This document shows, in pieces, positions 6,937 through 48,688 of a stretch of DNA of 64,000 nucleotides (position 1 is the first letter of the stretch; each line of letters opens with the position of its first letter). The position numbers were made by a program, and so were the translations under genes. Source of the DNA: Promicromonospora thailandica (GTDB lineage: Bacteria > Actinomycetota > Actinomycetes > Actinomycetales > Cellulomonadaceae). The stretch lies in assembly GCF_024171955.1 (NCBI RefSeq), contig NZ_JAMTCS010000012.1, positions 1 through 64,000 on the forward strand, given 5' to 3'. The notes under the pieces are model-generated. The model searched no databases. It saw only the letters and a list, made by a program, of their open reading frames with translations, and was not told where the DNA came from.

Positions 6937-8606
6937 GGCTCCGGCCCGCGCACCTCCTGTGGGCGGCGGCCGTCGCCGTCCCCCTCGGGTTCCTGGCGGT
7001 CTTCTTCGCCTGGCCGGTCGTCGCCCTCGTGGCCCGCGGGTTCGCGCCCGAGGGCACGCTCGACCTCAGCGGGTTCACCGAGGTGCTGTCCCGGCCCCGC
7101 ACGTGGCGGCTCGTGGGGCTCACCCTGACGCAGGCGGCGCTCGGCACGGCCTTCTCCGTGCTGCTCGGCCTGCCGCTGGCCTACCTGCTGTACCGCCGCT
7201 CGTTCCCCGGGCGCACCCTGGCGCGCGGTCTCGTCACCGTGCCGTTCGTGCTGCCCGCCGTCGTGGTCGGTGTCGCGTTCCGCACCCTGTTCGCGCCCGG
7301 CGGCACCCTGGGCTTCCTCGGCCTGGAGGAGTCGCTCGCGGGCATCGTCGTGGCGCTCGTGTTCTTCAACGTGTCCGTGGTGGTGCGCACCGTGGGCGGG
7401 CTGTGGGAGCGGCTCGACCCCCGCACCGAGCAGGCGGCGGCCTCGCTGGGCGCCTCCCCGGCCCGCGTGCTGCGCACCGTGACGCTGCCCGCCCTCGCGC
7501 CGGCCGTCGCGTCCGCGGCGTCCGTGGTGTTCCTGTTCTGCGCCACCGCGTTCGGGGTGGTGCTCGTGCTGGGCGGCGTGCGGTACGGGACCGTCGAGAC
7601 CGAGATCTGGACCCGCACCACCCAGTTCCTCGACCTGCGGTCGGCCTCGGTGCTGTCGGTGCTGCAGCTCGTGGTCATCACGGCGGCGCTCGCGGCGTCC
7701 GCCCGGGCGCGCAGCCGGCGCGAGGCGGCGCTCCGCCTCGTCTCGGCACGCCGGACCGCCCGGCCGCTGTCCTGGCGGCGGGCCGGGGACATGGCCGCTG
7801 CCCTCGGCGGGGTCGTCATCGTCGGCGGACTGCTCGTGCTGCCGCTCGCCGGGCTGGTCGCACGGTCGTTCCGCGAGCCCGACGGGTCGTGGGGCCTCGG
7901 CAACTACGTCGCGCTCGGCACCACCGGCGAGCGCAACGCGCTGGTCGTGACGGTCTGGGAGGCGACCGCGACGTCGCTGCGGACCGCGCTCGCTGCCACG
8001 GTGCTCTCCCTGGTGGTGGGCGGACTGGTCGCGCTCGTCGTGTCCCGCCGGCCGCGGGCGGCAGGGGCGCGCCGCGCCGTCGGGGTGCTCGACGGGCTGT
8101 TCATGCTGCCGCTCGGGGTCTCCGCCGTGACGGTCGGGTTCGGGTTCCTCATCACGCTCGACCAGCCCGTGCTCGGCGTCGACCTGCGGACCTCCGGGCT
8201 GCTCGTGCCGGTCGCGCAGGCGGTCGTCGCCGTGCCGCTCGTCGTGCGCACCGTGCTGCCCGTGCTCCGCGCCGTGGACCCCCGGCTGCGCGAGGTCGCC
8301 GCGGTGCTCGGCTCCGACCCCGGCCGCGTGCTGCGTACCGTGGACCTGCCGATCGCGCTGCGGTCGCTCGGGCTGGCCACCGGGTTCGCCTTCGCGGTCT
8401 CGCTCGGCGAGTTCGGCGCCACGTCGTTCCTCGCGCGGCCCGACGGCGCCACGCTGCCCGTGGTGATCTACCGCCTCGTGGGGCGGCCCGGGGCCGAGAA
8501 CTACGGGATGGCGCTCGCGGCGTCCGTGGTGCTCGCGGTGCTGACCGCGACCGTGATGATGCTGGCCGAGCAGCTGCGCGACGAGCGCGCCGGAGGGGAG
8601 TTCTGA
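6912..8606 (+). CDS. thiP: Thiamine ABC transporter permease (fused two-domain)
   Basis: The 564-residue protein has two consecutive binding-protein-dependent transport domains with about twelve membrane segments. Each half carries an EAA-type loop: EQAAASLGASPARVLRTVTLPAL in the first and REVAAVLGSDPGRVLRTVDLPIA in the second. This fused layout is typical of ThiP and Fe3+ permeases. The start is uncertain: GTG 6900 and GTG 6912 are both in frame inside thiB. I took 6912, giving a 25-base overlap and coupled translation, with no clear ribosome binding site. Confidence 0.92.
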   Translation: MDRDRRGLRLRPAHLLWAAAVAVPLGFLAVFFAWPVVALVARGFAPEGTLDLSGFTEVLSRPRTWRLVGLTLTQAALGTAFSVLLGLPLAYLLYRRSFPGRTLARGLVTVPFVLPAVVVGVAFRTLFAPGGTLGFLGLEESLAGIVVALVFFNVSVVVRTVGGLWERLDPRTEQAAASLGASPARVLRTVTLPALAPAVASAASVVFLFCATAFGVVLVLGGVRYGTVETEIWTRTTQFLDLRSASVLSVLQLVVITAALAASARARSRREAALRLVSARRTARPLSWRRAGDMAAALGGVVIVGGLLVLPLAGLVARSFREPDGSWGLGNYVALGTTGERNALVVTVWEATATSLRTALAATVLSLVVGGLVALVVSRRPRAAGARRAVGVLDGLFMLPLGVSAVTVGFGFLITLDQPVLGVDLRTSGLLVPVAQAVVAVPLVVRTVLPVLRAVDPRLREVAAVLGSDPGRVLRTVDLPIALRSLGLATGFAFAVSLGEFGATSFLARPDGATLPVVIYRLVGRPGAENYGMALAASVVLAVLTATVMMLAEQLRDERAGGEF

Positions 8607-9322
8607 TGGCGGGCCTGGAGGTCCGGGACGTCGTGGTCCGCTACGGCGGCACGACGGCGGTGGACGGCGTCTCGCTGGCCGTCGCGCCCGGCGAGGTGGT
8701 GGCCCTGCTGGGGCCGAGCGGCTGCGGCAAGTCGTCGCTGCTGCGCGCGGTGGCCGGGCTGGAGCCGCTCGCGCGGGGCACCGTCGCGTACGAGGGCGCG
8801 GACCTCGCCGGCGTGCCCGTGCACCGGCGCCGGTTCGGTCTCATGTTCCAGGACGGCCAGCTCTTCCCGCACCGGGACGTGGGGCGGAACGTCGCCTACG
8901 GGCTGGAGACCCAGCCCCTGAGTCGCGCGGAGCGGGACGCCCGCGTGACCGAGCTGCTCACCCTGGTGGGTCTCGCCGGCTACGAGCGCCGGGCCGTGCC
9001 GACGCTGTCGGGTGGGGAGCAGCAGCGCGTGGCCCTCGCGCGGGCGCTGGCACCGCGGCCACGGCTCCTGCTGCTGGACGAGCCGCTCTCCGCGCTCGAC
9101 CGGCAGCTCCGTGAGCGGCTCGCGAACGAGGTGCGGGCCGCCCTGGTCGAGACGGGCACGACCGCGGTGTTCGTGACGCACGACCACGCCGAGGCGGCCG
9201 TCGTGGCCGACCGGGTCGCCGTCATGGACCGGGGCCGGCTGCTGCAGGTCGCCGCGCCGGACGAGCTGCGCAGCGCCCCGGCGTCCGACCGCGTGGCGGA
9301 GTTCCTGGGCCTGCGGGGCTGA
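8606..9322 (+). CDS. thiQ: Thiamine ABC transporter ATP-binding protein
   Basis: The 238-residue ABC ATPase has Walker A GPSGCGKSS, the Q-loop FQDGQLFPH, signature LSGGEQQR, Walker B LLLLDEP and switch VTHDH. It energises uptake through ThiP. ATG 8606 shares one base with the thiP stop (TGATG) and has GGAGGGG just upstream. The cluster thiB-thiP-thiQ is complete and under one riboswitch. No thiamine biosynthesis gene is adjacent, so this locus handles salvage only. Confidence 0.95.
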   Translation: MAGLEVRDVVVRYGGTTAVDGVSLAVAPGEVVALLGPSGCGKSSLLRAVAGLEPLARGTVAYEGADLAGVPVHRRRFGLMFQDGQLFPHRDVGRNVAYGLETQPLSRAERDARVTELLTLVGLAGYERRAVPTLSGGEQQRVALARALAPRPRLLLLDEPLSALDRQLRERLANEVRAALVETGTTAVFVTHDHAEAAVVADRVAVMDRGRLLQVAAPDELRSAPASDRVAEFLGLRG

Positions 9323-9448
9323 CGCCGTCCCCGCACGCCGTGGACCCCAGGACGAGGCGGGGCGGTACCGCAGGCCGATGACGGCCGCCCGGCCTCCCGC
9401 CAGGCTTCCTCCAGGCACGACGGACGTGCCGACAAGGAGGGGAACGAC

Positions 9449-9874
9449 ATGGCTGAGAACGCAGCTGTCCGGAGCCCGTGGCCCGCGTGGACGGTGCCGC
9501 TCGCGGCGGCCGTGGCGGCGCTGGCGGTCTGGCTGATCGGCGTCGCGCTCGGCGTCGAGCCCGAGGCACGGGCCGGCGGGAGCATCCAGGCCGTCACCGT
9601 GCCCGCGGTCCTGGCCACCGCGCTCGCGGCGGGCTTCGCGGGATGGGGCGCGCGGGCGCTCGTGGCGCGGTTCGTGAAGGGCGGCGGGGAGACGGTCTGG
9701 TTCGTGCTGTGCGCCGTCGTGTTCCTCGGGTCCCTCGTGGGGGCGGCGGGCGGGACGACGCCGGGTGCGGTGGCGCTGCTCGTCGTGCTGCACCTGACCG
9801 TCGCCGTGGTCGTGGCGGTCGGGCTGCGGCGTGCGGTGCCGGCCGCCGTCCGCGCGCGGGGCGCGAACGCGTAG
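9449..9874 (+). CDS. Four-helix membrane protein, DUF6069-like
   Basis: The 141-residue protein has four clear hydrophobic helices: PLAAAVAALAVWLIGVALGV, VPAVLATALAAGFAGWG, VWFVLCAVVFLGSLVGAAGG and AVALLVVLHLTVAVVVAVGL. Conserved-looking features are the short N-terminal PW..W segment and GWGARALV after helix two. This resembles the actinobacterial DUF6069 family, which has no known function. A strong AAGGAGGGG supports ATG 9449. It converges with the PrsW gene ten bases downstream. Confidence 0.7.
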   Translation: MAENAAVRSPWPAWTVPLAAAVAALAVWLIGVALGVEPEARAGGSIQAVTVPAVLATALAAGFAGWGARALVARFVKGGGETVWFVLCAVVFLGSLVGAAGGTTPGAVALLVVLHLTVAVVVAVGLRRAVPAAVRARGANA

Positions 9875-9883
9875 CGGCAGGCG

Positions 9884-11065
9884 TCAGCGGGGCTGGGCGC
9901 CGAAACCCGTCGCGCCCCACGGTGACCGGGGCGGGTGCGGGCGGCGTGCCAGGAACGTCACCCGCGCCTGCTGCATGAGCCACACCAGGTACTGGCGCTG
10001 CTGCTCCAGGCCGTGCGGGTCCAGGTCGCCCTGCGCCCCGGCCCGCTGGTGCAGCAGCGCCAGCTCGGTGGCGGCCTGCTGGTAGTCGGTCATGGCGCGC
10101 TCCGCCGGGCGCCCGCCCGCGGCCCGCGCCCAGCTTCGCGCCGCCCGGCGGCCGGGCAGGCTGGACAGCATCCGCAGGTCGTCCTGCGTGACGATCCCGA
10201 TGGGCCCGTACAGGGGCAGGTAGTGCCCGATGAGCTGGACGATCCGGCGGCGGTCGCGGGCCAGGATCACGACGAGTGCGACGAGCACCGCGAACCCGAC
10301 CAGGTAGGCGCCCGCGAGGCCGAGCACCCCGAACTTGGTGGAGCCGTTCCACAGGCTGTGCAGGACGATCGCGCCGAGCAGGCCGTACAGGGGCGCCCGA
10401 CGGCGCAGGCGGCCGGGCCCGGCCAGCGCGGCCACCGCCACGCCGATCCCCGTCATCGCCGTGCACAGGGGGTGCAGCAGCGGCGACACCACGGCGCGCA
10501 GCACGAAGACGTAGCCGAGCTGGTCCACCTCCAGCGCGTCCACGAAGTACTGGATGTTCTCCGTCGCGGCGAACCCGAGGCCCACCATCGCGGCGTAGAT
10601 GACGCCGTCGGTGGGGCCGTTCAGCTCCTGCCGGCGCCACCACAGCATGCCGAACAGCACCAGACCCTTGAGCAGCTCCTCGACCACGGGGGCGCCGAAC
10701 GTCGCGACGAGGTACCAGCCCGCCTCCTCGCCGGTCATCTCGGTCTCCGTGAGCAGCGACAGGCCGAGCGTGTTGAGGATGCTCGCGAACAGGGCCGCGA
10801 CGCCCGCACCCCACAGGAACGCGAACACCAGGGCGTTCGGGGGCTCCGGCTCGAGCCGGTCCAGCGCGAGCACGAGCGGCAGCCACACGGCCACCGGCAG
10901 CAGCGCCAGCAGCAGGCCGACGACGAACGACCCGCCGCCCGTGACCGCGTCGAACGCGAGGATCACCAGCAGGCACAACGAGGCGAAGACGATCCCGACG
11001 ATCACCCCGACCGGGGCACGTCCGGGCGCACGCCCCTGGAGGATCGCACTGGGATCGATGGCCAT
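9884..11065 (-). CDS. PrsW-family intramembrane metalloprotease
   Basis: The 393-residue polytopic protein carries the three PrsW active-site motifs in order: PVVEELLKGL (EExxK), SPLLHPLCTAMTG (HxxxT) and AIVLHSLWNGS (HxxxN-like). All lie in or next to membrane helices. PrsW proteins are CAAX/ABI-like proteases, and the founding member cleaves an anti-sigma factor in Bacillus. A roughly 110-residue cytoplasmic tail follows the membrane part (from IVTQDDLRMLSSLPG). ATG 11065 was selected because it starts the conserved membrane part and has a TAGGGT box upstream with an eight-base gap. An anti-sigma substrate is only a speculation here. Confidence 0.9.
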   Translation of the reverse strand: MAIDPSAILQGRAPGRAPVGVIVGIVFASLCLLVILAFDAVTGGGSFVVGLLLALLPVAVWLPLVLALDRLEPEPPNALVFAFLWGAGVAALFASILNTLGLSLLTETEMTGEEAGWYLVATFGAPVVEELLKGLVLFGMLWWRRQELNGPTDGVIYAAMVGLGFAATENIQYFVDALEVDQLGYVFVLRAVVSPLLHPLCTAMTGIGVAVAALAGPGRLRRRAPLYGLLGAIVLHSLWNGSTKFGVLGLAGAYLVGFAVLVALVVILARDRRRIVQLIGHYLPLYGPIGIVTQDDLRMLSSLPGRRAARSWARAAGGRPAERAMTDYQQAATELALLHQRAGAQGDLDPHGLEQQRQYLVWLMQQARVTFLARRPHPPRSPWGATGFGAQPR

Positions 11066-11134
11066 GCCCAGGAACCCTACCGACTCGGCCCCCGCGACGG
11101 CGGGCGAACGCGCGGGCCCGGCTACGCTGACGCC

Positions 11135-11899
11135 GTGCCCCCACGTGTCGCTCTCGAGCTCGCAGTCCAGGACCCGGCCGGGGCGGTGATCGCGGCAGAC
11201 GTCGGCGCCCGGCGCGTCGAGCTCTGCACCGCGCTCGGCGCCACCGGCGGCATCACGCCGAGCGCGGCGCTCGTCGAGGCGGTGGTCGCCGCCGCCGCGG
11301 TGGTCCCGGCGTCCGACGCCGCGCCGCTCCTCGAGGTGCACGTGCTGGTGCGGCCGCGGCCCGGCGGGTTCGTGTACTCGGCCGCCGAGACCGACCTCAT
11401 GCTGCGGGACGTCACGCTCGCCGTCGACGCGGGGGCGGACGGCGTCGTCGTCGGTGCGCTCACGCCGTCCGGTGCCGTGGACGTGCCGCGGCTGCGCGAC
11501 CTGGTCGACGCCGCCGAGGGCGCCGAGGTGACGTTCCATCGCGCGATCGACGTGGTCCCGGACCCGGTCGCCGCCCTCGACGTGCTCGCCGGGGCGGGGG
11601 TCGCCCGCGTGCTCACCTCGGGCGGCGCGGCCCGCGCGGGCGAGGCGCTGGAGCGGCTGGCCGCGCTCGTGGAGCGCAGCGCGGGGGTGGGCATCGAGAT
11701 CATGGCGGGTGGCGGCGTCACGGCCGCGGACATCCCCGCCCTGGTCGCCGCGGGCGTCGACGCCGTGCACCTCTCGGCCCGGCGCACCGTGTCCGACGCC
11801 GGAGGCCCGGGCGGCGGGGGCGACACCGGCTACGAGGTGACGGATCAGACACTGGCCGAGGCTGCGGCGAGCGCCCTCCGCACTACGGTTGACCTATGA
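11135..11899 (+). CDS. cutC: CutC family protein (copper homeostasis / cutC-like TIM barrel)
   Basis: The 254-residue TIM-barrel protein has the CutC features [26 protein letters not shown] at the N terminus, [43 protein letters not shown] and RVLTSGGAA. The family was named for copper tolerance in E. coli, but that role is disputed and the biochemical activity is unknown. GTG 11135 lies six bases after TACGCT (11123-11128), the leaderless pattern. Its stop overlaps the pgi start (ATGA), so the two genes form an operon. Confidence 0.93.
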
Positions 11900-43650: not shown

Positions 43651-43748
43651 TGCCGCGCGCATTTCGGCGACGCAATTCTTTCCTTATTGATAAAGCGCAT
43701 GCCGAAGTGTAGGTAAGGCATTCCTTGCTCTCCCGGATCTGCCATTCT

Positions 43749-43769
43749 GGAATACGATCGAGGTATTCC
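43749..43769. promoter_or_regulatory. 7-7-7 palindrome before the DUF1540 gene
   Basis: GGAATAC (43749-43755) and GTATTCC (43763-43769) form a perfect inverted repeat with a seven-base spacer, 33 bases before the start codon at 43803. The surrounding 100 bases are unusually AT-rich for this genome. It may be an operator; the cognate regulator is not identified. Confidence 0.5.
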
Positions 43770-43802
43770 GGAGGTCAGGAACCGTCTGCGAGGAGAGAGC
43801 TC

Positions 43803-44111
43803 ATGAGCACGCTGATGGAGATGCCCGAGGTCGCCGAGTGCTCGATCGACGGCTGCGGCTACAACCACGACCACGGCTGCCACGCGGGCGCCGTCACCAT
43901 CGCCGGCCACGTGGGGGACGCGTCGTGCGCCACGTTCATCCCGCTGAGCACCAAGGGCGGCCTCGAGAAGGTCATCGCCCACGTGGGCGCCTGCCAGCGC
44001 GGCGAGTGCCTGCACAACGACAACCTGGAGTGCAACGCCCCGTCGATCCGCGTGGGTGCCGGCCCCGCCGACCCGGGCCACGCCGACTGCCTCACCTTCC
44101 AGGAGCGCTGA
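43803..44111 (+). CDS. Cysteine-rich protein with two DUF1540 motifs
   Basis: The 102-residue protein holds two DUF1540-type units. Unit one has Cys13, 18, 26 and 42 (ECSIDGCGYNHDHGCHA...SCATF). Unit two has Cys64, 69, 77 and 96 (ACQRGECLHNDNLECNA...DCLTF). Each unit keeps the C-x4-C-x7-C-x15-18-C pattern ending C-x-T-F, so each likely binds one metal ion or cluster. The function of DUF1540 is unknown; its small size and cysteine content suggest metal storage or sensing. A GAGGAGAG site precedes ATG 43803. A strong terminator follows. Confidence 0.88.
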   Translation: MSTLMEMPEVAECSIDGCGYNHDHGCHAGAVTIAGHVGDASCATFIPLSTKGGLEKVIAHVGACQRGECLHNDNLECNAPSIRVGAGPADPGHADCLTFQER

Positions 44112-44230: not shown

Positions 44231-44998
44231 TCAGCGAGCGAGGTGGTCGAGCAGGAGCAGGGCGTCGTCGTGCGTGCCGGGCAGGCGCTCGACCCACACC
44301 CGGGTGGGCCGCCGCACCTCGGTGGTGAGGCCCAGCACCTCGGCGTTGCGCTCCACGACGCGGCGGAGCGACTGACCCAGCTCGGCGGTGGACGGGCCGC
44401 GCTCGCACAGCACCACGAAGGTGCCGTCACCGACCGCGGCCATCGGATGCCCCTCGCCGAAGACCTGGTGCAACGTCCTGCCGATGGCGGCGGAGCGCGC
44501 GAGCCGCTGCCACGTGTCCAGGCTGTCCAGGCCGACGTCGAGCACGAGCAGGCAGTGCGTGGTCCCCGCGGAGGCGCCAGACCGCTGCGCCGTGCCGTAG
44601 GTCTCGCGCAGCCGCTCGCCCAGGTACTCCCCGGTCGGCAGCCCTGTCGACGGGTCGCGCGTGGCGATCTGGTACGGCACCCGCTCGCGCTCGCCGACCC
44701 AGCCGATCGCCGCGGCGCGCAGCGCACCCACGTCCGTGGGCCGGCCGAAGGCGGCGTAGAGGCAGGCCACGTCGTCCAAGGCCTCGGTGATACCGGCGCC
44801 GACCTCGGCCCGGGCCGCACCGAGGCGTTCCGCGGGCGCGATCACGCCCCGGCCCTCGGCCAAGGCCTCTGCCAGCGCTTCGGCGGCGGGATGGTCCCAG
44901 TCGTTCGGTCTGATCCAGACCGAGGCCAGACTCGTAGCGCGCCACCGCTCACGCAGGTCTTGTACACGCACCCGCGCCTCCTGCTGTGACTCGCTCAT
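44231..44998 (-). CDS. Degenerate GGDEF-domain protein
   Basis: The 255-residue protein has an N-terminal helical region of about 115 residues that I do not recognise. It then shows a diguanylate-cyclase-like fold: DPSTGLPTGEYLGERLRETYGTAQ matches the DxLTGLxNRxxxxxxL start, and LLVLDVGLDSLD matches the metal-Asp strand. Where GGDEF should stand the sequence is AAVGDGTFVVLCE, so the catalytic glutamate motif is lost. It is probably inactive and could bind nucleotide or protein. ATG 44998 has a GAGGG site. It is divergent from the sigma-factor fusion gene. Confidence 0.65.
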   Translation of the reverse strand: MSESQQEARVRVQDLRERWRATSLASVWIRPNDWDHPAAEALAEALAEGRGVIAPAERLGAARAEVGAGITEALDDVACLYAAFGRPTDVGALRAAAIGWVGERERVPYQIATRDPSTGLPTGEYLGERLRETYGTAQRSGASAGTTHCLLVLDVGLDSLDTWQRLARSAAIGRTLHQVFGEGHPMAAVGDGTFVVLCERGPSTAELGQSLRRVVERNAEVLGLTTEVRRPTRVWVERLPGTHDDALLLLDHLAR

Positions 44999-45117
44999 GA
45001 TGAAGGGACCCTCACGGGGATACATCATGACGCACCTTCGAGGTCGGAGTAGCACACTTCACCCGGAGGCAGTGGGCGATTTGTATTTTTCAGCCCCTGA
45101 GATTCGCCTTGTGGCTC

Positions 45118-45123
45118 TATAGT
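45118..45123 (+). promoter_or_regulatory. -10 element for the sigma-fusion gene
   Basis: TATAGT is a near-consensus -10. No good -35 is seen at the right spacing. Transcription would begin near 45130, so ATG 45125 is unlikely to be in the transcript and GTG 45158 becomes the favoured start. Confidence 0.5.
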
Positions 45124-45157
45124 CATGGGCAGGACACGGCCGAGAGTCTGGGTAGAC

Positions 45158-48100
45158 GTGAAGCAAGCGGAGAGCAGCACAGGGGAGACCCCGAGCGACG
45201 CGGAACTGATCCTGCAGGTCAGGTCGGGTAACCGCGACGCTTTCGGCGTGCTCTACGAGCGCCACGCCGCCGCCGCCCGGGCCCTCGCCCGGCAGTACGT
45301 CTCGCCCACCGACGCCGAGGACGTCGTGGCCGACGCCTTCAGCAAGCTGTTCGAGATGCTCCGCCGGGGCGCGGGACCCGACGCCGGGTTCCGTCCCTAC
45401 CTCTACACCGTGGTGCGGCACCGGGCGTTCGACGTGTCACGCGGCGCGGCCCGCACCCGCCCGTCCACCGACGACGAGATCGAGTCGGTGCTCGGCCGCG
45501 TCGCCTCCGAGGAGGACCCGGCGCTCGCCGGGTTCGAGCGCAGCGTGATCTACCGGGCGTACGCCGACCTCCCCGAGCGCTGGCGCGAGGTGCTCTGGTA
45601 CGTGCTGGTGGACGAGGTCAAGCCGGCGCAGGTGGCGCCGCTGCTCGGCCTCAGCCCCAACGGTGTCTCCGCCCTGCTCTACCGTGCCAAGGAGGCGCTG
45701 CGCGCGGGCTACCTGCAGCAGCACCTCACGCACGCCCCGTCCGACACCTGCCGCAGCGTGAACCCGCTGCTCGGCGGCTACGTGCGGGAGAGCCTGTCCA
45801 AGCGCGAGACCGCCAAGATCTCCGAGCACCTCACGACGTGCGGAACCTGCAGCGCGCTCGTGCTGGAGCTGCACGACGTGGCGCACGGCATGAAGACCGT
45901 CATCGCCCCGCTGGTGCTCGGCGCCGGCGGCCTGGCCCTGGTCGGCGCGGGCGCGCAGATCGGCGGGTTCGCGGTCGCGGCCAAGGCCGGTGCGGGCGCG
46001 GCGGCGGGCGGGGCCCCTGCGGCCTCGGCGGGCGTGAGCGCCGCCGGCACGTTCTCCGGCGGGGTCTCCTCCGCGGTCTCCGCGACCGCCGGCGCGGTCG
46101 CCTCCGCCGCGGCGGCCGCCACCGGCGGCAGCGTCGCGGCCGGGGCCATCGCCGTCGCGGCGGTCGGCGTGGTCGCGGCACTGCAGATCGCGGCCCCCGC
46201 CGAGGTCGGGCCCGTACCCGTGGCCGACACGGTGGTCACCACGCCGGAGAACCAGCAGGGGCCCGCGACCGAGACGGTCGACGGCGGCAGCAGCCCCGTG
46301 CTGCCCACCGACGTCGAGCCCGGCGACACGGTCACGCGCGCGTACCTGGTCGTGGGCTACACCGACGCCGCGACGCCGCTGCTGCCCCGCCAGCAGCAGG
46401 AGCTGTCGTTCACCATCGAGAACACGGGCGAGGCCGCGGCCACGGGCACGCAGCTCGAGATCACGCTGCCCCAGGGGCTCACGGTCGCGCGGCCCGACGG
46501 ACCGTTCGGCACGGGCGTTGGCGCGCGCCTGGTCCAGGCCGCGCTGCAGGAGCCGGCGCAGGGTGCCTACCCCGCCGCGACGCCCACGCCGGGCGCCACC
46601 ACGGCCGCCGGTTCCGGCACGGCCGCCGGTTCCGGTACTGCGGCGGGCGACTCGGCGGACGCCGAGGGCGAGACCCAGGCCATGCCCGACTCCTCGCCCT
46701 CGACGCCCGACACCATCGGCCTCGTCGACACCGACGCCCCGGCGGCGTGCCTGCCGACGGAGCTCACCGGCGTGCTGCACTGCACGCTCGGTGAGATCCC
46801 GGCCGGGCAGGAGCTGCGGGTCGTCGTGCCGGTGCGCGCCGCTGCCGGCGGCGACTACCCCGTGGGCGCCGAGGTCTGGGCCGACGGTATGGAGCCGGTC
46901 GCGGTCGACCTGCCCGGCCGCACCGTCTCGCCCTTCGGGCCGGAGCTGACCGCCTCGACCGAGAGCGTGTCGCTCGCGAGCCCGGGCACCGCCGCGTTGC
47001 CCGTCCGCCTGACCAGCACGGGCGACCGTTCGGTGGTGGGCGGCGGCTGGGCGGTCGATGTCACGCTGCCGAACGGCGTCACGCCGGCCTCCGCGCAGTC
47101 CGAGCTGACCTGTGCCGCGGGCGAGCTGCCGAACGCCTGGCGCTGCATCCCGATCGCCGGCACCCTCGCGGCGGCGGCCGACCTCTCGCCCGGCGCCGTC
47201 GCCGACGTCGCGCTGAACATCGCGACCGTGACGCCGTCGACCGCCGCCTACACGGAGCTCGGGGTCGCCAACATCCGTCCGGTGCTGAACGGCAACGCCC
47301 ACTCGGCATCGGCGACGCTCGGGGCGACGTCCGCGTGGGCGGACGCCGCGAAGGGCGCCGGCCCGGTCGCCGCGACCTGTGAGGCCACGGGCGGCGCGGG
47401 CGTCGCCAAGGCGGTCGTCACCGGCAGCTACACGAACACGACCAAGCGGGCCGTGTGGGTGGCGCTGGAGGCGGCCGGCGAGAAGGCCACGCACCCGGAG
47501 GCGCTTGCCCCGGGCGCCACCGCGCGGCTCACGGTGCCCGACGGCCTGCGGGTTCCCGCCGGCCAGGCCACCTACGTGCTGTCGACCGACGTCGAGGGCA
47601 GCAGCTACAGCACCCGCGTCCCGGCGGGCGAGCACCAGCGGCAGGACTGCTACGTGCCGAAGTGGGACACGGAGACGTCGGTGCGGACCATCAACCAGGG
47701 CGGCACCGTGGCGGTGCAGGGCACGGTCACGAACCGCACCGACGAGACGATGTCCGTCGTCATGGTGGTCCCGGTCGGGGACACCATGATGGAGTCTCCG
47801 CGTCTGCCCGTGGCTGCAGGTGGCACCGTGCCGTTCACGGTGGACACCAAGCGTGACCAGCTCGCCGGGGGCAACGTGACGTTCCGGCTCTCGCGCGAGG
47901 GTCTGGACGCGGACGGCGACGCCCCGGCCGAGCGGGTCGTGCCCCGGGCCAACCCCACGGCGCCGTTCGGCGCCGCGCGGATCGCTCCGGCGGTGGTGTC
48001 CCAGACCGCGTCCACCACGGGGGTGTGCGAGTTCGACCCCGCCGAGGACCGGTCGGTGCAGATGTTCTCGGTCATCGTCAGCAACAAGGAGTCGACGCTG

Positions 48101-48688
48101 CCCGTGCAGTTCCACGTCGGCGACGTGTCCCGGACGGTGCAGGGCGGCGAGACGGCGAAGATCGAGTACGCCGTGGCCTGGGGCACCGGGACCGTCGACC
48201 TGAGGGCGGGCGGCACGGTGCTGGCCACCCTGCCGGTCGAGTTCGAGTCGTGCGCCGAGCTCACGTGGCCCGCGGACGACCTCGGGGTCACCGTCACCAC
48301 GGAGTGCGTCGACCAGCAGGTGCGGCACACGGCCCTGGTCGAGAACCGCACCGGCCGCGGCTGGCTCGGCGTGCTGGTGCGCGAGAGCACCGGCGACGTG
48401 GGCGCCGAGGCCGAGGTGGCCGCGGGGCAGACCACCCCGCTCGTGATCGACCGTCACGTGCTGATGAGCAACGGCGGCAACGTGACCGTGCGCCTCACCC
48501 GCGAGCTCGAGGGCGACAAGCGCACCGTGGAGCGGACCTTCTGGGCCAAGGGCGCGGCCTGCCTCGGCAGCGACGGGGGCGACGTGTGCACGTCGACCCC
48601 GCCGCCGGACCAGGGCGTGACGCCCAGCGCCTCGCCGTCCCCGATGCGTTCCGGCCGCAGCTGGCCGTGGGGCGGTTACTGCGACTGA
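45158..48688 (+). CDS. ECF sigma factor fused to zinc-finger anti-sigma-like, membrane and large extracellular region
   Basis: This 1176-residue protein combines unusual parts. Residues 21-92 are sigma region 2 (DAFGVLYERHAAAARALARQYVSPTDAEDVVADAF). Residues 125-190 are region 4 (YADLPERWREVLWYVLVDEVKPAQVAPLLGLSPNGVSALLYRAKEAL). A zinc-binding HLTTCGTC (His224, Cys228, Cys231) like anti-sigma ZAS domains follows. Two hydrophobic stretches (about 247-270 and 325-346) flank an Ala/Gly-rich linker. Then come about 830 residues of beta-rich repeats of the DUF11/CARDB kind (LSFTIENTGEAAATGTQLEITLPQGLTV), with paired cysteines. ECF groups with C-terminal extensions are known in actinobacteria, but this length is striking. 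It is presumably a one-piece envelope-sensing sigma factor. ATG 45125 is an alternative start. Confidence 0.85.
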   Translation: MKQAESSTGETPSDAELILQVRSGNRDAFGVLYERHAAAARALARQYVSPTDAEDVVADAFSKLFEMLRRGAGPDAGFRPYLYTVVRHRAFDVSRGAARTRPSTDDEIESVLGRVASEEDPALAGFERSVIYRAYADLPERWREVLWYVLVDEVKPAQVAPLLGLSPNGVSALLYRAKEALRAGYLQQHLTHAPSDTCRSVNPLLGGYVRESLSKRETAKISEHLTTCGTCSALVLELHDVAHGMKTVIAPLVLGAGGLALVGAGAQIGGFAVAAKAGAGAAAGGAPAASAGVSAAGTFSGGVSSAVSATAGAVASAAAAATGGSVAAGAIAVAAVGVVAALQIAAPAEVGPVPVADTVVTTPENQQGPATETVDGGSSPVLPTDVEPGDTVTRAYLVVGYTDAATPLLPRQQQELSFTIENTGEAAATGTQLEITLPQGLTVARPDGPFGTGVGARLVQAALQEPAQGAYPAATPTPGATTAAGSGTAAGSGTAAGDSADAEGETQAMPDSSPSTPDTIGLVDTDAPAACLPTELTGVLHCTLGEIPAGQELRVVVPVRAAAGGDYPVGAEVWADGMEPVAVDLPGRTVSPFGPELTASTESVSLASPGTAALPVRLTSTGDRSVVGGGWAVDVTLPNGVTPASAQSELTCAAGELPNAWRCIPIAGTLAAAADLSPGAVADVALNIATVTPSTAAYTELGVANIRPVLNGNAHSASATLGATSAWADAAKGAGPVAATCEATGGAGVAKAVVTGSYTNTTKRAVWVALEAAGEKATHPEALAPGATARLTVPDGLRVPAGQATYVLSTDVEGSSYSTRVPAGEHQRQDCYVPKWDTETSVRTINQGGTVAVQGTVTNRTDETMSVVMVVPVGDTMMESPRLPVAAGGTVPFTVDTKRDQLAGGNVTFRLSREGLDADGDAPAERVVPRANPTAPFGAARIAPAVVSQTASTTGVCEFDPAEDRSVQMFSVIVSNKESTLPVQFHVGDVSRTVQGGETAKIEYAVAWGTGTVDLRAGGTVLATLPVEFESCAELTWPADDLGVTVTTECVDQQVRHTALVENRTGRGWLGVLVRESTGDVGAEAEVAAGQTTPLVIDRHVLMSNGGNVTVRLTRELEGDKRTVERTFWAKGAACLGSDGGDVCTSTPPPDQGVTPSASPSPMRSGRSWPWGGYCD

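Follow-up and report, generated by a model that had tools for sequence, protein, structure and literature searches.

A giant ECF sigma factor fusion with a predicted extracellular repeat region, paired with a divergent GGDEF-like gene in Promicromonospora thailandica

The window analysed here is the whole 64,000-nucleotide stretch of Promicromonospora thailandica DNA at positions 1 to 64,000 of contig NZ_JAMTCS010000012.1. In it this soil actinobacterium carries a gene whose one reading frame joins an extracytoplasmic function (ECF) sigma factor, an anti-sigma-like zinc finger, an anchor in the membrane and a long, probably extracellular, region (the ectodomain). A preliminary description of the locus had proposed this composition, and the observation is confirmed by Pfam and NCBIfam matches and by the hydrophobic segments of the predicted protein; the interpretation attached to it is partly supported. 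A second gene, here called the partner, lies head-to-head with the fusion. The features are given below in window coordinates, and L and G numbers are our handles for loci and genomes of relatives.

44231..44998, minus strand: partner gene, 255 amino acids; conserved N-terminal region and a GGDEF-like domain without GG[DE]xF
44999..45157, no strand assigned: intergenic region shared by fusion and partner, with ATGACGC (GCGTCAT on the partner strand)
45158..48688, plus strand: whole fusion gene, 1176 amino acids, in the order sigma, ZAS, hydrophobic helix, linker, transmembrane helix, ectodomain
45251..45454, plus strand: Sigma-70 region 2, residues 32-99 (Pfam PF04542, 34.9 bits)
45548..45700, plus strand: Sigma-70 region 4, residues 131-181 (Pfam PF08281, 25.4 bits); TIGR02937 spans both regions
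45749..45850, plus strand: ZAS-type anti-sigma zinc finger, residues 198-231, with H224-x3-C228-x2-C231 (Pfam zf-HC2)
45899..45955, plus strand: hydrophobic segment 1, residues 248-266, from hydropathy; probably part of the anti-sigma module and not crossing the membrane
45956..46132, plus strand: linker of Ala, Gly, Ser and Thr, nearly uncharged, residues 267-325
46133..46189, plus strand: predicted transmembrane helix, residues 326-344, N-in/C-out (mean hydropathy 2.31)
46190..46333, plus strand: stalk, residues 345-392, from composition
46334..46957, plus strand: repeat D1, DUF11-like with a low-complexity insertion, Cys 531/542 (hhalign)
46955..47347, plus strand: repeat D2, DUF11-like, Cys 652/663 (hhalign, Cys pairing)
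47354..48583, plus strand: repeats D3-D6, three with Cys near each end (741/831, 957/1032, 1050/1135)

The frame is open from either ATG 45125 or GTG 45158 up to its stop codon (48688). Of the two starts we prefer GTG 45158, because relatives have a start codon there: Promicromonospora relatives carry GTG at the equivalent position (TTG in L010), and in L007, L011 and L012 this codon is the earliest start codon in the open frame. At the position matching ATG 45125, L005, L008, L013 and L014 have TTG and the others have no start codon. The length of the frame is in itself little proof of coding, given that an antisense open reading frame of 1006 amino acids (45437-48457, minus strand) lies opposite the fusion, as is frequent in very GC-rich DNA. 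The fusion gene is unlikely to be such a chance frame because its GC content is 0.72/0.58/0.96 at the three codon positions, and because its differences from Promicromonospora panici are distributed by codon position. Between the two species we count 6/3/63 differences at codon positions 1/2/3 over the 246 codons of the sigma and ZAS parts, and 215/177/280 over 777 codons of the ectodomain. Judged by these substitution patterns, the sigma and ZAS parts are under strong purifying selection and the ectodomain is evolving much faster.

A single frame is kept in all nine Promicromonospora loci that hold the whole gene and in two Antribacter loci (in L010 the linker contains a run of N). In a scan of the genus, all 13 genomes, including that of P. 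thailandica, matched the fusion, 12 of them as one long match and G001 as two pieces on different contigs. As these relatives come from separate assemblies, we rejected a frameshift or an assembly join of two genes and treat the fusion as one real gene. The preliminary description had named such a join, or orthologues that are consistently split, as grounds for abandoning the fusion; the orthologues are unsplit.

The N-terminal part carries sigma regions 2 and 4 only, as expected of an ECF sigma factor. Region 2 scores well above its Pfam cut-off of 24 bits, and region 4 (Sigma70_r4_2) falls 0.3 bits under its cut-off of 25.7. The NCBIfam ECF model TIGR02937 gives 69.8 bits against a cut-off of 42.9, and phmmer matches the protein to the sigma-E chain 1or7_A (E 1.5e-10) and, weakly, to the anti-sigma factor ChrR (E 0.027). 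The zinc finger scores 23.4 bits with zf-HC2 (cut-off 22.2), so that sigma, ZAS and transmembrane parts are all present in one chain. H224, C228 and C231 are invariant in an alignment of 11 rows, and C228 and C231 are both present in 26/26 giant copies. Pfam calls zf-HC2 in most relatives scanned, not in L068 or L079; a motif script finds an HxxxCxxC-type stretch in both despite this. As an HxxxCxxC domain, the ZAS-type segment is predicted to bind both zinc and sigma. An AlphaFold2 model of residues 1-352 has a mean predicted local distance difference test score (pLDDT) of 54.6; blocks within residues 11-90 reach 81-90, and the model is usable for the sigma part only.

Behind the stalk, the ectodomain spans about 790 residues and comprises about six beta-type repeats. 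Profile-profile comparison with hhalign relates D1 to D2 (probability 95.8; 91.1 for D1b-D2), and a second repeat family joins D3, D4 and D6 (D3-D4 91.5, D3-D6 92.1, D4-D6 97.3), with D3-D5 reaching merely 45.9. The repeats had been described as DUF11/CARDB-like. We see support for the DUF11 part from the D1-D2 comparison and from L053, the one of six orthologues scanned in which DUF11 exceeds its cut-off (28.7 against 24.6 bits); the window protein itself matches CARDB (E 0.016) and DUF11 (E 0.49) below cut-off. A search of Pfam to E 1 gave no NPCBM or other carbohydrate-binding match in the window protein, and the two NPCBM frames of the same genome are on other contigs.

The paired cysteines that had been noted in this region also appear in relatives. 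The number of ectodomain Cys residues is even in 26/26 chosen giant copies, 12 of them from Promicromonospora or Antribacter, with 8 in one protein, 10 in four, 12 in twenty and 14 in one. Even counts are also found in L010, L061, L063, L084-L086, L068, L069 and L076. Among the 26 giant copies, the pairs 531/542 and 652/663 are always kept or lost together. Both members are present in 20/26 for 741/831, 20/26 for 957/1032 and 18/26 for 1050/1135, and a single aligned Cys is kept in 2, 4 and 3 proteins, respectively; 1144/1175 is no conserved pair. Behind the sigma domain other relatives have different modules: ricin-B lectin in L079, DUF3344 in L109, immunoglobulin (Ig) I-set and ricin-B lectin domains above Pfam cut-offs in the L119 fusion (7662-10502, plus strand), and Big_6 below cut-off in L075 and L078. 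Since relatives differ in this way, the domain assignments indicate that the inner part is conserved and that the outer ectodomain modules are exchanged.

The preliminary description had left the choice between one and two membrane helices. Both hydrophobic segments are present, and the second is likely the sole true crossing. The sigma part has to lie on the inner side of the membrane. We favour a single crossing at residues 326-344, with segment 248-266 belonging to the putative anti-sigma module, because of the even Cys counts, the nature of the stalk, the linker charges of relatives and the weakness of segment 1 in some of them. The 15 residues after the helix contain no Lys or Arg and two Asp or Glu, and the stalk is rich in Pro, Ser, Thr and Asp. 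Among partner-linked copies that are complete, both in the family and in f9, 41-156 residues separate segments 1 and 2. In several relatives segment 1 is weak, or the linker following it is basic: in L068 and L069 segment 1 scores too low for a crossing (0.95 and 1.11), Lys plus Arg against Asp plus Glu before the second helix is 6/0 in Nonomuraea L076, 6/0 in L092 and 4/0 in L078, and L112 has the stretch NRMSKRRQQ there. The AlphaFold2 model does not resolve the segment 1 region.

The fusion is widespread in the family. In a tree of sigma and ZAS sequences the window row stands beside P. panici, with 96% identity over 266 columns. A sample of the family gave a sigma and ZAS match at E<=1e-20 in 25/26 genomes. 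The best match has at least 51% identity in 21 of the 26; three of these matches stop close to the end of a contig, and the remaining 18 fall within open frames of 950-1638 codons. In four genomes there are weaker, shorter relatives alone, and in one there is none. Of 18 main-copy loci examined, 17 are complete (920-1624 amino acids; L048 repeats L016, and L064 is from the same genus) and one runs off its contig. The genome of P. thailandica holds a second, distant sigma-zinc-finger-transmembrane fusion of about 615-628 amino acids on contig C13 (L065, 3182-5026, minus strand), and no partner gene was detected in the 10 kb around it.

The partner protein looks GGDEF-derived, with its catalytic motif lost. 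A profile of 26 copies gives four matches in the Protein Data Bank (PDB) at E<=1, all to GGDEF proteins and over the same region. The GG[DE]xF motif occurs in 0/48 partner records (47 distinct), and the window partner lacks the GG[DE]EF motif of an active diguanylate cyclase. The gene was found in 32/41 loci searched, in each of the 32 head-to-head with a long sigma fusion and separated from it by 85-220 bp; the nine loci lacking it hold shorter or distant paralogues. Wider samples were scored for the partner on at most 45 (order) or 18 (class) first-look candidates per genome. At the order level it occurs in 8/59 genomes and adjoins the fusion in all eight, which belong to the 14 genomes where a sigma fusion is matched at E<=1e-25; in the six fusion-bearing genomes without it, the best fusion match has 34-41% identity. 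The class sample (148 genomes) gave 18 partner matches in 17 genomes, the P. thailandica copy included. Nine further near-full-length matches are all divergently adjacent to a sigma-ZAS fusion, a weaker match in G190 is followed directly by the fusion on the same strand, and the other seven matches cover the GGDEF region only (G197, the one examined, has no sigma fusion nearby).

Divergence of the two genes is not universal. The partner lies directly upstream of the fusion on the same strand in L119, and a Paenarthrobacter plasmid carries a co-directional pair beside sortase and pilin genes. The pairing itself persists in distant members, and the second-copy loci L068/L069 have it too. On a tree of 57 sigma and ZAS rows, the distribution of the partner label takes 3 changes to explain; with shuffled labels the number is 16. 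The suggestion that this gene belongs to the same pathway as the fusion is supported by the pairing across loci and genomes, and the partner is very probably a component of the same module. Near the partner, L113-L117, L068, L069 and L120 have a second, short sigma gene (Pfam-checked in L116 and L117), and L113, L116 and L117 have an SRAP (SOS response associated peptidase) gene close by.

The intergenic region between the pair is conserved in parts. ATGACGC/GCGTCAT is kept in 19/22 aligned regions, compared to a mean of 0.27 rows after shuffling (shared descent ignored), and the words TATAGT and TTCACCC are kept in 15/22 and 18/22. CGTC is a usual -10 element of ECF promoters. Inspection by eye fixed no -35 element at the usual spacing from GCGTCAT.

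Fusion of a sigma factor to its anti-sigma domain is already known from ECF48/52/53-like proteins, and ECF surveys list such fusions. According to a review, ECF48 and ECF53 are predicted to end in a zinc-finger anti-sigma domain with one or two transmembrane helices, in extensions of at most 400 residues (PMC8999054). This agrees with the earlier remark that most known ECF extensions are far shorter. The likeness to the window protein is one of described architecture and not of group profiles, and the part after its sigma domain is about 980 residues long and of another make-up. Some ECF52/53 proteins are described as having predicted glycosyl hydrolase and carbohydrate-binding domains (PMC10766802). 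SCO4117 of Streptomyces coelicolor (ECF52) is named the best understood of these fusions, with its activation still open (PMC8999054, PMC5826349); it shares an ECF sigma, zinc finger, transmembrane region and long C-terminal extension with the window protein (PMC5826349). Compared by description only, ECF52 differs in having a proline-rich stretch with an NPCBM-type carbohydrate-binding module, where the window protein has DUF11/Ig-like Cys-rich repeats and is linked to a GGDEF-like partner. In Pseudomonas putida, IutY (ECF243) also joins sigma and a membrane anti-sigma in one protein, as outlined in the review (PMC8999054). It differs in serving a Gram-negative iron-signalling system. Its anti-sigma part is of another type, and it is not known to carry a large ectodomain of beta repeats.

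Taken together, we assign a probability of about 0.55 to a reading of the locus as a single-protein envelope-signalling system, in which a ZAS-inhibited, membrane-tethered sigma factor would be released on an envelope trigger and the partner would act as a cytosolic regulator. Inhibition of the N-terminal ECF sigma would come in cis, from the ZAS domain next to it, as is to be expected from established ZAS anti-sigma models and the precedents of SCO4117 and IutY. The sigma/ZAS unit would be tethered to the membrane through one N-in/C-out helix, with about 790 residues of DUF11-like and Ig-like repeats, probably stabilised by disulfides, in or beyond the cell wall. There the ectodomain may detect an event at the envelope or surface that frees the sigma part for its putative regulon, by stepwise proteolysis more probably than by a purely conformational switch. 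Protease release has been proposed for SCO4117 (PMC5826349), and activation by regulated proteolysis is reported for IutY (PMC8999054). The partner, lacking a catalytic motif, would most simply be a dedicated cytosolic modulator that binds the sigma/ZAS unit and possibly brings in a nucleotide or interaction signal. As the fusion regularly stands beside a partner derived from a signalling enzyme, outside and inside signals may be combined on one sigma switch.

Release might instead be conformational, with a signal from the ectodomain weakening the contact of ZAS with sigma by way of the single helix, so that RNA polymerase is engaged at the membrane and no cleavage occurs. ECF41 and CorE-type extensions, which the review describes as under conformational control, are a precedent (PMC8999054), and no protease gene is among the conserved neighbours mapped, in which no search aimed at proteases was made. 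We nevertheless consider this unlikely, as a single helix and a flexible linker of about 60 residues would couple poorly in mechanical terms, and as IutY, the membrane-tethered fusion that has been studied, is activated by cleavage. The arrangement of the two hydrophobic segments could also be read as two true crossings, leaving the large C-terminal part in the cytoplasm. The segments are of similar strength and the linker of the giant copies carries almost no charge, but the even Cys counts, the stalk composition and the basic linkers and weak first segments of several relatives make this reading highly improbable.

It is also conceivable, if rather doubtful, that the partner is a member of the regulon, or an unrelated protein kept in place by a shared divergent promoter, and no regulator. 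The CGTC-type element on the partner strand in 19/22 intergenic regions and the near-constant divergent arrangement would suit such a role. Against it stand the co-directional pairs of L119 and the Paenarthrobacter plasmid and the survival of the association in distant members and second copies; moreover, no partner gene lying apart from the fusion turned up among the first-look candidates scored in the 59 order genomes. An artefactual origin of the fusion gene from a frameshift or join has no supporting point and, with the single frame recurring in independent assemblies, is of negligible probability.

Several observations weigh against the proposed envelope-signalling system or parts of it. 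Residues 227-352 of the AlphaFold2 model have pLDDT values below 50, giving the ZAS/sigma interface no structural support. Only part of the evidence stands behind the topology, because the giant-copy linkers are almost uncharged, as said above, and those of some relatives are acidic (8 Lys plus Arg and 11 Asp plus Glu in L069, 0/2 in L091). Some shorter relatives have odd Cys counts (L087 1, L077 3, L075 1, L078 1). No protease could be tied to the fusion locus in a search limited to Pfam on its neighbours. GGDEF homology of the partner is weak: the best PDB match has E 0.0013 and the other three 0.53-0.74, Pfam GGDEF touches 2/26 partners (best E 0.23), NCBIfam cyclase/phosphodiesterase models give E 0.053 and 0.12, and the unrelated SIS model also touches 6/26, weakly (best E 0.093). 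Pairing counts ignore shared descent, absences of the partner are not proven because limited candidates were scored per genome, and in bootstrap trees the partner label needs 2-3 changes, never 1, with deep branches poorly resolved.

Among neighbouring genes, a PrsW-type protease had been mentioned in connection with release of the sigma part and placed, as a non-adjacent gene, at 9884-11065. The gene is confirmed, its open reading frame runs from 9884 to 11770, about 33 kb from the fusion, and we rejected it as a dedicated protease, the shared window being the sole tie. DnaK-GrpE-DnaJ-HspR were likewise rejected as functional neighbours: the synteny looks incidental because the fusion/partner pair persists where none of the four genes was detected, namely in L057, L058 and L062, and in L109, L112-L117, L119, L076 and L077 (some of these stretches being short). 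Between hspR and the partner, a short Cys-rich open reading frame (43725-44111, plus strand) matches DUF1540 in two stretches (E 1.2e-11), and was detected in 12/13 loci of one locus set and 10/18 main-copy loci. A loose motif scan found no sortase or LPXTG surface genes beside the window gene, and we rejected these as general neighbours. Plasmid fusions in Arthrobacter (L078, 4953-6776) and Paenarthrobacter (L120, 9126-10802) adjoin class C sortase and SpaA-type pilin genes. Open reading frames of 1989 codons (L091, 10033-15999, minus strand) and 2896 codons (L093, 7179-15866, plus strand) with LPXTG-like ends, found by motif scan only, adjoin shorter sigma fusions.

What is new at this locus is the size of the fusion, its conservation across a family and its GGDEF-like partner, of which we found no description in the literature searched, comprising mostly open papers and not the main ECF classification. 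More tentatively, the two genes could form a previously undescribed actinobacterial module, in which an adhesin-like ectodomain would gate the sigma factor from outside and a catalytically dead GGDEF-derived protein from inside, combining envelope state with a nucleotide (cyclic di-GMP or GTP-type) or interaction signal. An analogous case is RmdB/RsiG/sigma-WhiG of Streptomyces venezuelae, where an inactive GGDEF domain binds sigma and antagonises the anti-sigma factor (PMC13232838). RmdB is a GGDEF-EAL phosphodiesterase, whereas the window partner appears to be a stand-alone GGDEF-like protein tied genetically to a membrane-tethered ECF sigma. With a close copy in 21/26 family genomes, testable disulfides and a constant neighbour, the locus is a clean example for this type of protein. 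If the partner touches sigma, the recently reported RmdB-WhiG contact would appear to be one case of a wider regulation of sigma factors by dead GGDEF domains.

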